The notes below the pieces were generated by a model that saw nothing but the letters and a program-made list of their open reading frames with translations, had not been told where the DNA came from and did no database searches. From contig WQRL01000059.1 of the NCBI GenBank assembly GCA_009786775.1, forward strand, positions 3,511 through 8,627: a stretch of DNA of 5,117 bases, given 5' to 3'. The DNA is from Oscillospiraceae bacterium (GTDB lineage: Bacteria > Bacillota > Clostridia > Oscillospirales > Oscillospiraceae). Below are positions 1 to 5,117 of this stretch, in pieces. Positions within the stretch are counted from its first letter, which is position 1; every line of letters begins with the position of its first letter. Made by a program: the position numbers and the translations under genes.

Positions 1-2341
1 GATCTACGCTTCCGTCCACTGCGTCTGGGCGCTCAAAGCTCAGGGATTCGATGTGGTCATAGCCAATAATAACCCGGAAACAGTTTCCACCGACTATGAC
101 ACGGCGGATAGGCTCTACTTTGAACCTCTTACAAACGAAGATGTCCACAATATAGTAAAGACTGAAAAGCCTTATGCGGCAGTGGTTGCGTTCGGAGGCC
201 AGACCGCTATTAAACTAACTTCGCATCTTCAGAAAATTGGCGTGAAAATTCTGGGGACACAGCCTGAGAGCATTGATGCAGCCGAAGATAGGGAGCGTTT
301 TGATGCCCTTCTTGAAGAGCTTAAGATACTCAGGCCCGAAGGCTACACAGTTATGACCGAAGAAGAGGCCCTAAACGCAGCCGGCCGCATAGGTTACCCT
401 GTGCTAATGCGCCCGTCATATGTCCTGGGCGGCCAAAACATGATCATAGCGTACTCCGAGGATGATATACGTGAGTATATGGAAATAATACTCAGGCAAA
501 ATATTGAAAATCCCATACTGATAGACAAATACCTCATAGGCACAGAGCTAGAGGTGGATGCCATTTGTGATGGCACCGACATATTGATCCCCGGCATCAT
601 GGAGCATATTGAGCGCGCAGGCGTCCACTCAGGGGACTCAATTGCAGTTTACCCTGCATGGAATGTGGACGACTACATGCAAAACAAGATAATCGACCAC
701 ACAAAGCGCCTTGCCATGGCTTTGAAGGTTAGCGGTATTGTGAATATTCAATATCTTCTAAGCGAGGGTGAGCTTTATGTGATCGAAGTAAACCCGCGTT
801 CATCCCGCACTGTGCCCTATATAAGCAAGGTAACCGGTGTGCCGATGATTGAACTGGCCACCCACTGCATGCTGGGTGGTAAGCTCAGAAATATGGGGTA
901 CGGCACAGGAGTTGCCAAGCAGCCCCCATATGTGGCGGTCAAAGTTCCCGTGTTCTCATTTGCAAAGCTCTTGGATTTAGATATACAGCTGGGGCCAGAA
1001 ATGAAGTCCACAGGCGAGGTGCTGGGCATAGCATCCACACGCGAAGAAGCCCTCTACAAGGGTATGCGGGCTGCAGGATATAATATGAACAAAAAAGGCG
1101 GCATTTTCATCTCCGTAAAAGATCCGGACAAAGCTCAGATGATTCATGTCGCACACAAATTTGCAAAGCTCGGCTTCAAACTTTATGCCACAGGCGGCAC
1201 GGCGAACAAATTAAAGAGCGTGGGCTTGGAGACTGTATCCGTCGGCAAAATTTACGAGAGCGATGATAATATTTTGCCCCTAATTGAAAGCGGCAAAATA
1301 AGCTATGTAATCTCCACCTCCACCAAGGGGCGCGACCCCGACAGGGACAGCGTAAAGATGAGGCGCAAGGCAGTTGAGCGCTCCATTCCATGCCTGACCT
1401 CAGTGGATACGGCCAATGCCATAGCCGACTGCCTCATGAGTAAGTACTGGGATACTACTATTGAGCTGGTGGACATTAACAAAATGCGCACAGGCAAGAG
1501 GAAGCTCAGCTTCACCAAGATGCAGGCCTGCGGCAATGACTATATCTACTTTAACTGCCTGGACTTCAAGAAAATCACAGACCCCGAGAGCCTTAGCATA
1601 AAGCTCAGCGACCGCCACTTAGGCATAGGGGGTCACGGTGTTGTACTGATTAAGCCCGCACATAACGCAGATGCCCGCATAAGGATTTACAATATGGACG
1701 GCACCCCGGGCGGAGTCGGTGGCAATGCTCTATGCTGCGTGACTAAGTATTTATATGACGAGGGGATTGTCCGCAAGCCGGAAGTCACAATAGAAACCGA
1801 GGGTTTCTTACGGCGCATCCAAGTTACCACAACAGAGGATGTGGCGACAAAGCTCACGGTGGATATGGGTCCCGTGGACTTTAGCCCATCTAGCATCCCT
1901 GTTGAAATTGGCGGGGAGAAAATAATTAACAAACTCACCACAATAGGCGGGGAAGAGTACCATGTGACATGCCTGAATATAGGCAACTCACATGTAGCGG
2001 TGTTCTGTGATGATGTACATACACTGGACCTTCAAAAGATTGGGCCGGATTTTGAGGCCGACCGGATATTCCCTGACCGGATAAATGCCAACTTTATACA
2101 GGTTCTCGACGAGTCGTCCATAATGCTACGGGTCTGGGAGCGGGGCAATGGCGAAACCCAAAGCTGTGGTACTTGTGCTTGTGCAGCCGCAGTGGCGGCT
2201 GTCGAAAACGGGCATTGCGAAAAGAATACAGACATAACTGTCAAAATGCAAGGCGGGGATTTGGTAGTACGCTATGATGGCGAACGGGTGTATATGACGG
2301 GGTCTGCTACTAAGTGTTTTGATGGGGTTATAGAGATTTAG
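1..2341 (+). CDS. carB: Carbamoyl-phosphate synthase large subunit (C-terminal half) fused to a diaminopimelate epimerase-like domain; 5' partial
   Basis: The frame is open from nucleotide 2, so the gene starts upstream of the window; the GTG at 53 is internal. Of 779 visible residues, about 1-495 match the second half of CarB. They include the segment with NNNPETVSTDYDTADRLYF near the start, the ATP-grasp motif RPSYVLGGQ (about 137-145), MEHIERAGVHSGDS (about 200-213), the metal/ATP-binding stretch IEVNPRSSRTVP (261-272), and an MGS-like allosteric domain from about 363 (KKGGIFISV) to VDINKM. CarB makes carbamoyl phosphate from bicarbonate, ATP and ammonia supplied by CarA, feeding pyrimidine and arginine synthesis in the cytoplasm. 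The visible half lines up with the family without gaps of note and appears functional. Instead of stopping after VDINKM, the frame continues through RTGKRKL into a complete DapF-like domain (503-779). The fusion is the odd feature; a sequencing error is unlikely because both parts share one uninterrupted frame. Confidence 0.95.
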   Translation, partial: IYASVHCVWALKAQGFDVVIANNNPETVSTDYDTADRLYFEPLTNEDVHNIVKTEKPYAAVVAFGGQTAIKLTSHLQKIGVKILGTQPESIDAAEDRERFDALLEELKILRPEGYTVMTEEEALNAAGRIGYPVLMRPSYVLGGQNMIIAYSEDDIREYMEIILRQNIENPILIDKYLIGTELEVDAICDGTDILIPGIMEHIERAGVHSGDSIAVYPAWNVDDYMQNKIIDHTKRLAMALKVSGIVNIQYLLSEGELYVIEVNPRSSRTVPYISKVTGVPMIELATHCMLGGKLRNMGYGTGVAKQPPYVAVKVPVFSFAKLLDLDIQLGPEMKSTGEVLGIASTREEALYKGMRAAGYNMNKKGGIFISVKDPDKAQMIHVAHKFAKLGFKLYATGGTANKLKSVGLETVSVGKIYESDDNILPLIESGKISYVISTSTKGRDPDRDSVKMRRKAVERSIPCLTSVDTANAIADCLMSKYWDTTIELVDINKMRTGKRKLSFTKMQACGNDYIYFNCLDFKKITDPESLSIKLSDRHLGIGGHGVVLIKPAHNADARIRIYNMDGTPGGVGGNALCCVTKYLYDEGIVRKPEVTIETEGFLRRIQVTTTEDVATKLTVDMGPVDFSPSSIPVEIGGEKIINKLTTIGGEEYHVTCLNIGNSHVAVFCDDVHTLDLQKIGPDFEADRIFPDRINANFIQVLDESSIMLRVWERGNGETQSCGTCACAAAVAAVENGHCEKNTDITVKMQGGDLVVRYDGERVYMTGSATKCFDGVIEI
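1508..2338 (+). other. dapF: DapF-like domain at the C-terminus of the CarB fusion, first catalytic Cys replaced by Gly
   Basis: About 277 residues, the normal length of a whole DapF, which interconverts LL- and meso-diaminopimelate for lysine and peptidoglycan synthesis. Family landmarks in order are FTKMQACGNDY, DRHLGIGGHG, RIYNMDG, KYLYD, GNSHVAVF, RINANF, WERGNGET and CGTCACAA, ending in VYMTGSAT..FDG. The Asn residues expected to bind substrate, the Glu-Arg pair of WERG (2138-2143) and the second catalytic Cys (codon 2165-2167) are present. The first catalytic Cys, normally in M-C-G-N-G/A, is Gly (codon GGT at 1718-1720, one base from TGT). The surrounding loop is also altered: GTPGGVGGNALCC where relatives have roughly GSEGxMCGNAIRC; the usual GADG/GSDG is GGHG. 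Two-base epimerisation should therefore be impaired or absent (inference). ATG at 1484, preceded by GGTGG, could allow separate translation of this domain. Confidence 0.9.
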
Positions 2342-2965: not shown

Positions 2966-3241
2966 ATGCTTGAAATATCTCAATATGAAGCAATGGCCAT
3001 GCTGGACTTGCAAGAAGGTGAGCGTGAAATGCTCGCGGAGCGTCTTAATTTGCTTTTTGAAGGATTTGCAAAACTTGAAAGTGCCGATGTTGAGGGTGTT
3101 GAGCCTTTAGTGTCGGTTATAGACAGATATAATGTGCTGCGGGAGGATGTTGCGGAGAAGATTATTACTAGAGATGAGCTTCTAGCCAATGCCCCGGAGC
3201 AGTATGACGGTTATTTTCAGGTGCCGGGGACATTGGAATAG
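2966..3241 (+). CDS. gatC: Aspartyl/glutamyl-tRNA(Asn/Gln) amidotransferase subunit C
   Basis: A 91-residue protein, the usual size of GatC. GatC is the small subunit that wraps around and holds GatA and GatB together in the cytoplasmic GatCAB complex, which converts Glu-tRNA(Gln) and Asp-tRNA(Asn) to Gln-tRNA and Asn-tRNA. The C-terminal third is highly typical: LREDVAEKIITRDELLANAP followed by EQYDGYFQVPGTLE matches the family signature (LREDxV..RxELLANAPxxxDGYFxVPxxLE). The N-terminal part forms the expected two-helix segment. The ATG at 2966 is preceded by a G-rich ribosome binding site and a good promoter. The stop codon lies within the first copy of a 14-bp tandem duplication. Nothing in the protein suggests decay, in contrast to the gatA-like gene downstream. 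Confidence 0.93.
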   Translation: MLEISQYEAMAMLDLQEGEREMLAERLNLLFEGFAKLESADVEGVEPLVSVIDRYNVLREDVAEKIITRDELLANAPEQYDGYFQVPGTLE

Positions 3242-3262: not shown

Positions 3263-3412
3263 AATGGGCAGACAGGTGAGTAAGACTGGGCTGAAAAGTT
3301 AAAGGTCAGTGCCCTAGGCGAAGGGCCGGCAATAATGTAACAATAATTTGAAATCTGAAGCGAGAGGGGTCTGGCTGGTGTCAAATTGCTTCTTGTGAGT
3401 TTGGAGGGAAGA
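3242..3412 (+). other. gatC-gatA gap with potential leader hairpins
   Basis: The gap is 171 nt, unusually long for a gatCAB operon, where the genes normally abut. It sits where the missing N-terminal coding part of gatA would be, but no frame here translates into the expected amidase N-terminus, and TGA 3356-3358 closes the gatA frame upstream. Besides the GGCACTGA/TCAGTGCC pairing, a competing short stem GCCC (3311-3314) / GGGC (3323-3326) shares bases with it. No gene seen. Confidence 0.5.
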
Positions 3413-4540
3413 GTGGAGTATTTCGTAACGAAATTTGATGAGAGTGTCCCCGCCGGTGCAAAGCGTGCGGTTGTGGATGATTCGATAATGATTAAAGGAA
3501 GTCCGGCGGCTGCCGGATCGAAAATTTTTGGGAATTTCATCTCGCCGGTTGAGGCAGAGGCAGTAAGAAAGCTCAAAGCTGCCGGGATTGTGATTGCCGG
3601 AAGAACTTTGATGAATGAGTTCGGAACGAACGGATTATTTGAGCTAAAGAACTCCAAATACGGTCTGGAGAACTCGTTAGAACGTCTTGAGATCGTGAAC
3701 TCTGGAGCTGTTGCGGCAGTAGCAGAAAACGCTGCCGACTTCGCTTTGTGCAATGATTACACAGGAGCGGTTAGCCTTGAAGCAGCCGAGCACGGGCTCT
3801 ATTATATACATCCAACATACGGCACAGTGTCCAGATACGGCCTTATTCCTTCGGTGCAATCCATGGATCAAATTGGCGTGGTTTGCAGGTCTCCGAGTGA
3901 AGGTTTTCAAATCTTGGAGATTATCTCAGGGCATGACCCTAAAGATGGCGCGATGATTGACCCCGATTGCGCAAGTGGCAGACAGGAAATGGAAAATGTA
4001 AGATTAGATGGCGCAGATATCAAAATTGGTATTCCGTCCAACATAGAAAATGGACTCTGGGAATCTGCCACAGCCGTCAGCCTTCTTGGCTTTGCGCCGG
4101 GGGTTGAAACAGTTGACACAGAGCTAAAACATTTTGAGTACTGTAATCCTGTAATGCAAATCCTCTGTTGTGCCGAACTTTCAAACAATATAAGCCGGTA
4201 TGACGGAATCAAGTTCGGATATAGGGCGGAGGGTTATGGTGATCTGCGGGAGCTATATACGAAAACACGTTCGGCCTTCGGGCCTCACGTAAAACTTGCA
4301 GCGATGGCCGGTGCGCTGGTTCTCTCACATGATAATTACTTAAAGTTCTACGACAAGGCTATGAGGGTGAGAAGGCTAATTAGGGACTCTCTGGAATTTA
4401 ATAAATATGACGCAATTGTTGTACCCACCCCAGGCATAGCCAGGCTTTGCGGGATTCCCGCAGTTACAATGCCACTGATGACAATAGCTGCAGCTCCCGG
4501 TCGTGAAGATATCTTAATGGCAATTACCGGAAACAAGTAG
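3413..4540 (+). CDS. gatA: GatA-like amidase-fold protein lacking the catalytic triad (probable pseudoenzyme)
   Basis: Position between gatC and gatB and clear alignment identify a GatA homologue; GatA normally hydrolyses glutamine and channels ammonia to GatB. Retained family wording includes FGNF..P..AEAVRKLK, LMNEFG, HPTYGTVSRYGL, SMDQIG, ISGHDPKD, ISRYDGIKFGYR, LYTKTRSAFGP.VK and KAMRVRRLIRD. The catalytic Lys of VAIKDN is Asp (codon 3476-3478), the cis-Ser of GGSSGGS is Val (3695-3697), and the nucleophilic Ser of SDTGGS is Ala (3767-3769). The whole Gly/Ser loop is gone, and KRR of the substrate-binding helix is KLA. About 60-70 N-terminal residues and some 27 residues after the APT-like VPTPG are missing: about 375 aa against roughly 485. 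The start GTG 3413 is chosen for GGAGG at 3403-3407, five bases upstream; TTG 3386 is in frame but lacks such a site. The frame has no internal stops, so it may still be made. Glutaminase activity is not expected. Confidence 0.85.
   Translation: MEYFVTKFDESVPAGAKRAVVDDSIMIKGSPAAAGSKIFGNFISPVEAEAVRKLKAAGIVIAGRTLMNEFGTNGLFELKNSKYGLENSLERLEIVNSGAVAAVAENAADFALCNDYTGAVSLEAAEHGLYYIHPTYGTVSRYGLIPSVQSMDQIGVVCRSPSEGFQILEIISGHDPKDGAMIDPDCASGRQEMENVRLDGADIKIGIPSNIENGLWESATAVSLLGFAPGVETVDTELKHFEYCNPVMQILCCAELSNNISRYDGIKFGYRAEGYGDLRELYTKTRSAFGPHVKLAAMAGALVLSHDNYLKFYDKAMRVRRLIRDSLEFNKYDAIVVPTPGIARLCGIPAVTMPLMTIAAAPGREDILMAITGNK
4267..4290 (+). other. Stem-loop with UUCG tetraloop inside the gatA-like gene
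   Basis: ACGT (4267-4270), TC, GGCC (4273-4276), TTCG (4277-4280), GGCC (4281-4284), TC, ACGT (4287-4290) form a symmetrical hairpin. It has eight base pairs, a 2x2 internal loop and the very stable C(UUCG)G tetraloop. It is coding (TRSAFGPHV region). It is not followed by a T-run on the + strand, so it is not an ordinary terminator; function unknown and possibly incidental. Confidence 0.4.
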
Positions 4541-4557: not shown

Positions 4558-5117
4558 ATGAAATATGAAGTTGTAATGGGTCTGGAAGTCCATGTGGAAC
4601 TGTCCACGGAGTCAAAATTATTTTGCTCATGCAGCGCGAAGTTTGGCGCGGATCAGAATGAAAACGTTTGTCCTGCATGTGCCGGGATGCCGGGAATGCC
4701 TGCTGTCACAAACAAAGGGGCAGTCGATTTAGGAATTGCTGCCGCAATTGTGACAAACAGTGAGATAACCCCCATGATGACATTTGACAAAAAGAACTAT
4801 TTTTACCCCGACCTCCCAGCGGGATATCAGATAACACAGTTATTTGCGCCCATATGCACAAATGGCTGGGTGGATATCAGCACGGCGGAAGGGGATAAGC
4901 GCATTACACTTAAGCAAATTCACATTGAAGAAGATGCCGGGAAGCTCGTCCACGACCCCCGCACTCGCTCAAGCTTGGTGGATTTTAACCGTACCTCGGT
5001 GCCCCTTGTGGAAATAGTTTCAAACCCCGATTTTAAAGCAGCGGAAGAGGTCACGGCTTACCTGGACAAGCTGCGCTCGCTGCTGAGCTTTGCGGGAGTT
5101 TCCGACTGCAAGATGCA
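4558..5117 (+). CDS. gatB: Aspartyl/glutamyl-tRNA(Asn/Gln) amidotransferase subunit B; 3' partial
   Basis: The first 186 residues are visible; the gene runs off the window. GatB phosphorylates the misacylated Glu or Asp on the tRNA and amidates it with ammonia delivered from GatA. Clear family motifs are MGLEVHVEL at the start, the zinc-binding cysteines C23, C25, C38 and C41 (FCSC and CPAC), KKNYFYPDLPAGYQITQ (about 78-94), IHIEEDAGKLVHD, VDFNRTSVPLVEIVS and GVSDCKM. No frame lesion or obviously missing catalytic element is seen, although the usual PKGYQ is PAGYQ. It follows the gatA-like gene by 17 nt with a strong ribosome binding site. An intact GatB beside a GatA without a glutaminase centre raises the question of its ammonia source. 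Confidence 0.96.
   Translation, partial: MKYEVVMGLEVHVELSTESKLFCSCSAKFGADQNENVCPACAGMPGMPAVTNKGAVDLGIAAAIVTNSEITPMMTFDKKNYFYPDLPAGYQITQLFAPICTNGWVDISTAEGDKRITLKQIHIEEDAGKLVHDPRTRSSLVDFNRTSVPLVEIVSNPDFKAAEEVTAYLDKLRSLLSFAGVSDCKM

Follow-up and report, generated by a model that had tools for sequence, protein, structure and literature searches.

The locus and its genes

The stretch of DNA analysed here (the window, 5,117 nucleotides; G000:C59:3511-8627 in our numbering) comes from an Oscillospiraceae genome that is 69% complete and assembled in 345 contigs. According to family profile matches, the + strand of the window carries, in this order, a carB-dapF fusion, gatC, a homologue of gatA and the start of gatB. 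GatCAB is the textbook example of a tRNA amidotransferase that depends on glutamine and passes ammonia through a tunnel, and the subject of this report is the GatA homologue, here called pseudo-GatA, in which the residues expected of a glutaminase have been replaced. Counts given below for the genus refer to 19 genomes including that of the window (18 others), from which 13 loci were fetched. The features of the operon are as follows (aa, amino acids).

2966..3241, + strand: gatC of the pseudo-GatA operon, 91 aa (TIGR00135, 73.4 bits against a cut-off of 47.1; PF02686), in the same order in 13/13 genus loci
3413..4540, + strand: pseudo-gatA, 375 aa from GTG 3413, with the mechanical frame running from TTG 3386 (PF01425, 137.5 bits; TIGR00132, under its cut-off)
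3476..3478, + strand: GAT codon of Asp31, at the catalytic Lys position (alignment)
3695..3700, + strand: Val104-Asn105, either of which holds the cis-Ser position, depending on the placement of a one-residue gap (MAFFT, HMMER)
3767..3769, + strand: GCG codon of Ala128, at the nucleophile Ser position, within a new motif, LCNDYTG (alignment)
4223..4225, + strand: Arg280 of YDGIKFGYR, kept, taken as the glutamine-carboxylate Arg by its equivalence in motif to yeast R334
4558..5115, + strand: gatB, first 186 codons up to the contig end (TIGR00133, PF02934)

Pseudo-GatA has lost the catalytic residues of GatA

The open frame of pseudo-gatA extends over 3386..4540 from a TTG, or 384 codons. The GTG at 3413 is the likelier start because a database protein of 375 aa, P0050, is 100% identical to the product from that codon, and because GGAGG precedes it; P0050 is encoded on 2 contigs, the longest of which has 52,298 bases. 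An earlier reading of this DNA (the original prediction) had described the frame as open for more than 370 codons, which it is from either start. Catalytic columns were read by alignment to the canonical GatA of the same genome and to solved GatA chains, with the Lys, cis-Ser and Ser columns being those that we take to be catalytic from S. aureus GatA. Both MAFFT and HMMER place Asp31 in the Lys column and Ala128 in the nucleophile Ser column, as had been predicted. The Val predicted for the cis-Ser column is found there in the MAFFT alignment (Val104, 3695-3697), but HMMER gives Asn105 (3698-3700), and the identity of this replacement is uncertain owing to a Gly/Ser loop that has one residue fewer. 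The structural motifs to either side are indeed kept; the alignment, which had been called nearly free of gaps, is missing some 60 residues at the N terminus and a segment ahead of the last strands.

The same losses are found in relatives, for which tallies cover the 120 nearest homologues of each of two query groups, one for the genus and one for a second group outside it. Catalytic Lys is absent from 13/13 genus orthologues and from all 120 nearest homologues, and a Ser is left in the nucleophile column in only two of the orthologues (L037, L041) and 14 of the homologues. In yeast GatA, an Asp binds the amide of glutamine and an Arg its carboxylate (excerpt of PMC4027206). With these positions equated by motif, the amide-holding Asp is lost in 120/120 nearest homologues, and the Arg is present in 119/120, and in 120/120 of the second group. 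The new LCNDYTG motif keeps its Cys in 115/120 and its Asp in 120/120. Such conservation, and likewise the Ser of the 14 homologues just mentioned, would suit a rebuilt glutaminase, with hydrolysis of glutamine continuing in pseudo-GatA through another nucleophile, for example the LCNDYTG Cys. We consider this improbable given the loss of the Lys and of the presumed amide-holding Asp from every homologue counted, and given that the Cys column varies among the second-group rows printed (Ala or Gly, with Cys in L048).

Pseudo-GatA reaches 212.7 bits against TIGR00132 (NCBIfam gatA), below the curated equivalog cut-off of 481.1, compared with 586.3 bits for the other GatA of the genome, which lies in its own gatC-gatA-gatB cluster on contig C38. 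AlphaFold2 predicts the amidase-signature fold of GatA for pseudo-GatA, with a predicted template modelling score (pTM) of 0.88. By its residues and its TIGR00132 score, pseudo-GatA is not a catalytic GatA; by its predicted fold it belongs with GatA. A survey of 100 loci, containing 102 GatA-like frames, found 75 frames with the Lys-Ser-Ser triad and 27 without it, the latter including fragments and repeats of genus members; L051 (G038), which keeps all three residues, was left out of the pseudo-GatA set. In L050 (G037), a degenerate amidase was observed with no gatB or gatC match found beside it. A search of open-licence PMC papers found none on a GatA without catalytic residues, which is a weak negative.

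Conservation of pseudo-GatA and of its GatB partners

Orthologues of pseudo-GatA are present in 13 of the 18 other genus genomes in the same gene order, and gatC, the gatA-type gene and gatB stand together, with the pseudo-gatA frame open, in the window and in 13/13 genus loci. The original prediction had proposed a search for orthologues with the same replacements, and the Lys is lost in all 13 at this locus. The ratio of nonsynonymous to synonymous substitution rates (dN/dS), also proposed as a check, was low, at 0.17-0.21, in the single unsaturated pair; for most pairs the calculation failed or was defeated by saturation at synonymous sites. A decaying pseudogene was rejected on the strength of the conserved orthologues, the open frames and this dN/dS, and we regard decay or an assembly error as highly improbable. 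Lengths of 250-453 aa in the fetched loci, the faster evolution of pseudo-gatA relative to gatB, and a gatB interrupted by an in-frame TAA in G008 (L043, 336-1794), though pseudo-gatA is open there, could be read as signs of decay; they are opposed, in addition to the frames and the dN/dS, by the existence of two groups with 120 homologues each and by the identical protein on a 52-kb contig.

A tree was built from 70 GatB rows, of which 67 differ. In it, the partners of pseudo-GatA (35 rows) were split from the canonical GatB proteins (35 rows) with support of 100/99 and in 100% of 200 bootstrap trees; 28 of the canonical rows had been picked at random out of a bigger pool, and a few repeated rows come from one genome. 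The GatB of the window is too short for the tree; its identity over 186 aa is 88% to the G016 member and does not exceed 61% to canonical rows. All ATP/Mg active-site positions compared are kept in 34/34 or 35/35 partner rows, the sole exception being a Ser/Thr exchange that is also seen in canonical rows, and the window GatB keeps the compared residues as far as the contig end. Together, the orthologues, the dN/dS, the predicted fold and the kept GatB residues support the original view of pseudo-GatA as a retained pseudoenzyme.

Amidases and asparagine routes in the genomes

Pseudo-GatA is the sole PF01425 match in 11 of the 19 genus genomes, where "sole" means that no second match was obtained at the threshold used. 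Both kinds of GatA occur in three (the window's own genome, G003 and G014), only a canonical type in three and none in two; the canonical type was assigned by score, and in G018 it is spread over two frames. The second gatA that the original prediction had suggested looking for thus exists in the window's genome, as part of a canonical gatCAB, and no other amidase was found in 11/19. Action of a canonical GatA in trans was rejected as impossible where none was found, within assembly completeness. A degenerate GatA is also encoded in 21 additional genomes, as the sole amidase in nine and alongside a canonical type in 11, and G047 has an extra fragment.

These counts bear on whether some other amidase, docked on pseudo-GatA or nearby, feeds it ammonia in trans, which would leave the system still dependent on glutamine or asparagine. 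An asparaginase-like gene does lie 3' of gatB in L049 (3323-4354), with a relative of that gene in L103 (2617-3705), and three genus genomes have the canonical GatA as well. We nevertheless find a supply in trans unlikely, as 11/19 genus and 9/21 other genomes are without a second PF01425 amidase, L049 and L103 are the only loci among those compared where the asparaginase-like gene adjoins the operon, and no recurrent glutaminase gene stands beside the genus operons. Of the two ammonia sources that had been proposed for pseudo-GatA, free ammonia and another glutaminase, the former appears to us the better supported.

All 11 sole carriers in the genus have GlnRS over the cut-off and 10 have AsnRS, the exception being G013, which is 64% complete. 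A role in forming Gln-tRNA is unlikely given these GlnRS genes, and G003, in which no GlnRS scored over the cut-off, also has canonical GatCAB. AsnA was found in 1/19 genus genomes (G011, which has no Gat) and full-length AsnB in 2/19 (G012, G017), with short or weak family matches in 12 more. Because AsnA and full-length AsnB are absent, 10/11 sole carriers have no other predicted asparagine route. This argues against a complex that does not amidate at all and serves as an assembly for binding tRNA or AspRS or for regulation, as do the conserved GatB active-site residues, which would be dispensable if the role were purely structural. Loss of the glutaminase, the presence of AsnRS and GlnRS in most genomes and of AsnB in some would agree with such an assembly, and on balance it is distinctly unlikely.

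Two classes of AspRS were distinguished. Class A has the motif RDLG in 10/10 fetched genus copies and aligns with T. thermophilus AspRS; class B has RDHGG in 10/10 fetched genus copies and aligns with chains named Asp/Asn ligase. We take RDHGG to be the mark of a non-discriminating AspRS, and a literature search for RDHGG as a specificity mark found nothing in print. Operon-linked AspRS is of class B in 8/8 examined, and only a class A copy was found in G011. Pattern matches for tRNA-Asn were obtained in 12/19 genus genomes, and the U1-A72 pair is clear in 11/12 genes called by ARAGORN, the gene of G002 having a degenerate 5' half. According to an excerpt of PMC4206432, U1-A72 of tRNA-Asn is required for the two-step route.

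A second group with linked AspRS genes

Outside the genus, the second group of dead GatA proteins occurs in gut and rumen Clostridia and shows Asp in the Lys column, Leu or Ile in the cis-Ser column and Ala, Ser or Thr in the nucleophile column. When one member was taken as the query, Asp replaced the Lys in 120/120 nearest homologues, whose nucleophile column holds Ala (72) or Ser (48). An AspRS frame lies directly upstream in 16/19 second-group loci; of the remainder, L070 and L103 have contig starts that are too close, and no AspRS was matched in L068. In L049, a family scan found AspRS and GatC in one protein. In eight further loci (L075, L093, L097, L099, L110, L118, L130 and L144), the AspRS frame is 691-723 aa long and a separate gatC is lacking; we read these frames as putative AspRS-GatC fusions like that of L049.

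T-box leaders scoring above the Rfam gathering score precede aspS in L127 and L138 (2/11 second-group loci searched), and laxer settings gave leaders at 40-52 bits, under the cut-off of 93, before aspS in 5/5 loci searched. In L127 and L138, AAC, an Asn codon, is aligned at the presumed specifier position, as placed by the Rfam consensus and the general layout of T-box leaders. By the rule given in an excerpt of PMC2494555 (specifier 1-5 bases before GAG), the specifier would fall slightly later than this. The aspS leaders of L075, L093, L099, L110 and L144 have a clear T-box antiterminator, but the Rfam model is a poor fit to their conserved upstream portion; these leaders are perhaps a variant T-box, and no specifier triplet was readable in leaders of the L075 type. 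T-box-like motifs also occur in L048, L049, L076 and L097.

Loss of a second glutaminase upstream of the operon

Upstream of the window, the same contig encodes CarA, the glutaminase subunit of carbamoyl-phosphate synthetase. The relevant features are the following.

L033 689-1801 (contig of the window, upstream); L035 17796-18914; L036 15262-16347; L037 5092-5571: carA
2..2341 of the window, + strand: C-terminal part of carB fused to dapF (family profiles)

Alignment to the E. coli small chain and to intact homologues showed that the Cys, His and Glu of CarA are replaced on the window's contig by Gly, Asn and Thr. The 120 nearest CarA homologues include 73 without the Cys and 47 with all three residues. 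Within the genus, where the state of CarA was read in G000, G016, G004, G013 and G012, the triad is lost in G016 and G004 also, and the carA frame of G013 stops after 159 aa at the start of carB, with the glutaminase part missing. With free ammonia as the donor, the loss of both of these unrelated glutaminases would be expected. The carriers of pseudo-GatA are gut bacteria, part of them from termites, and termite guts are reported to be rich in ammonia, with values of 68.7-899.6 umol per g dry weight (excerpt of PMC4675541).

Several further observations were made on these genes and their surroundings. The DapF domain of the carB-dapF fusion (window 2-2341; L035, L036, L037, L040) reads GGVGGN in 5/5 copies; the Cys expected at this motif is, we presume, the active-site Cys, and this domain may be a pseudoenzyme too. 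CarB of G012 (L041) has 1065 aa and no DapF domain. On the contig of the window, carB is split into overlapping frames (L033 1788-3572 and 3563-5851) just before the window, with an ambiguous base nearby; it is one long frame in relatives of this genome, and the split is perhaps an assembly join. Between carB-dapF and gatC lies an inverted repeat with arms of 65 nucleotides (2367-2431 and 2787-2851) that are 83% complementary and spaced by 355 nucleotides. No copies of it were found in the other loci compared, and it is perhaps a small mobile element. In G012, tblastn with E. coli proteins over ~2.1 of 2.2 Mb, in slightly overlapping pieces (L210-L329), did not find guaA, pyrG or glmS; purF (with its Cys), guaB and eno were found.

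A probable ammonia-driven GatCAB

We think it probable that this GatCAB, with its dead but conserved GatA, amidates Asp-tRNA(Asn) using free ammonia and not glutamine. A class B AspRS would load Asp onto tRNA(Asn), and GatC and pseudo-GatA would keep GatB and the tRNA together. GatB would then use ATP to activate the tRNA-bound Asp, which environmental ammonia would attack, perhaps after entering through the former glutaminase pocket and tunnel. The cell would obtain its asparagine in this way, as the genomes have GlnRS and are mostly without asparagine synthetases. An excerpt of PMC4027206 reports that NH4Cl substitutes for glutamine in yeast GatFAB, and that a truncation lowering glutamine use raises NH4Cl use; ammonia-driven chemistry is therefore possible.

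A number of points weigh against this proposal. The genomes are incomplete assemblies, and gene absences are read within their completeness. The class of AspRS rests on a single motif, and U1-A72 of tRNA-Asn does not discriminate, because G011, without Gat, has the same pair. G015 has a class B AspRS, yet the searches run detected neither Gat nor an asparagine synthetase there, and G012 combines AsnB with a CarA that retains its Cys. Outside the genus, AsnB over most of its length is present in 10/21 carriers, including 6/9 sole carriers, and asparagine therefore need not come by way of pseudo-GatA in those genomes. In the genus loci, aspS does not adjoin the operon, and an Rfam search at gathering scores, which covered the window, L035, L036, L038, L044, L046, L048 and L049, detected no T-box in any of these, genus loci included.

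A broader history is possible, and we offer it tentatively, with some doubt. An ancient branch of Clostridia GatCAB may have dropped glutamine, with GatA kept as a scaffold whose pocket (LCNDYTG in the genus) admits ammonium; in the termite-gut genus, the switch may also have killed CarA, so that both enzymes would run on gut ammonia.

If an ammonia-driven GatCAB is correct, the amidation step survives a swap of its nitrogen source, and these proteins are natural material on which ammonia access to GatB and the structural retention of GatA could be tested. With the dead CarA, glutaminase loss would then be tied to an ammonia-rich habitat. The dead genes are labelled amidase or GatA in databases, a caution for the use of such names.

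Comparison with known systems

Pseudo-GatA differs from the GatA of canonical bacterial GatCAB (2df4, 3h0l, 4wj3, 3al0) in lacking both Lys-Ser-Ser and the amide-holding Asp and in falling under the TIGR00132 cut-off, and its GatB partners form a separate clade. Clostridium acetobutylicum has, according to an excerpt of PMC4206432, a T-box-controlled extra AspRS and an extra GatCAB for tRNA-dependent asparagine; L127 and L138 have a layout of this kind. The comparison is one of gene layout, and nothing in the excerpt describes the GatA of C. acetobutylicum as non-catalytic. The same excerpt describes Bdellovibrio with AsnRS, GlnRS and GatCAB and without AsnA or AsnB. The sets of Bdellovibrio, Deinococcus and Thermus resemble those found here, in which AsnRS and GlnRS accompany GatCAB and asparagine synthetases are mostly missing, but GatCAB is treated in that part of PMC4206432 as an ordinary amidotransferase, whereas the glutaminase here is dead.

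In archaeal GatDE, the GatE subunit is a relative of GatB by profile matches and operates without a GatA-type amidase. Its partner GatD is a working asparaginase-type amidase, and a GatD-like gene is not linked in the genus loci. A further parallel is mitochondrial CPS1, the glutaminase-type domain of which has lost its Cys. That domain is retained in a synthetase that uses free ammonia, the latter as indicated by its PDB name, carbamoyl-phosphate synthase [ammonia] (6uel, 5dot). CPS1 is a different enzyme with a different fold from pseudo-GatA, for which it is a parallel only; it is a true relative of the dead CarA encoded upstream.
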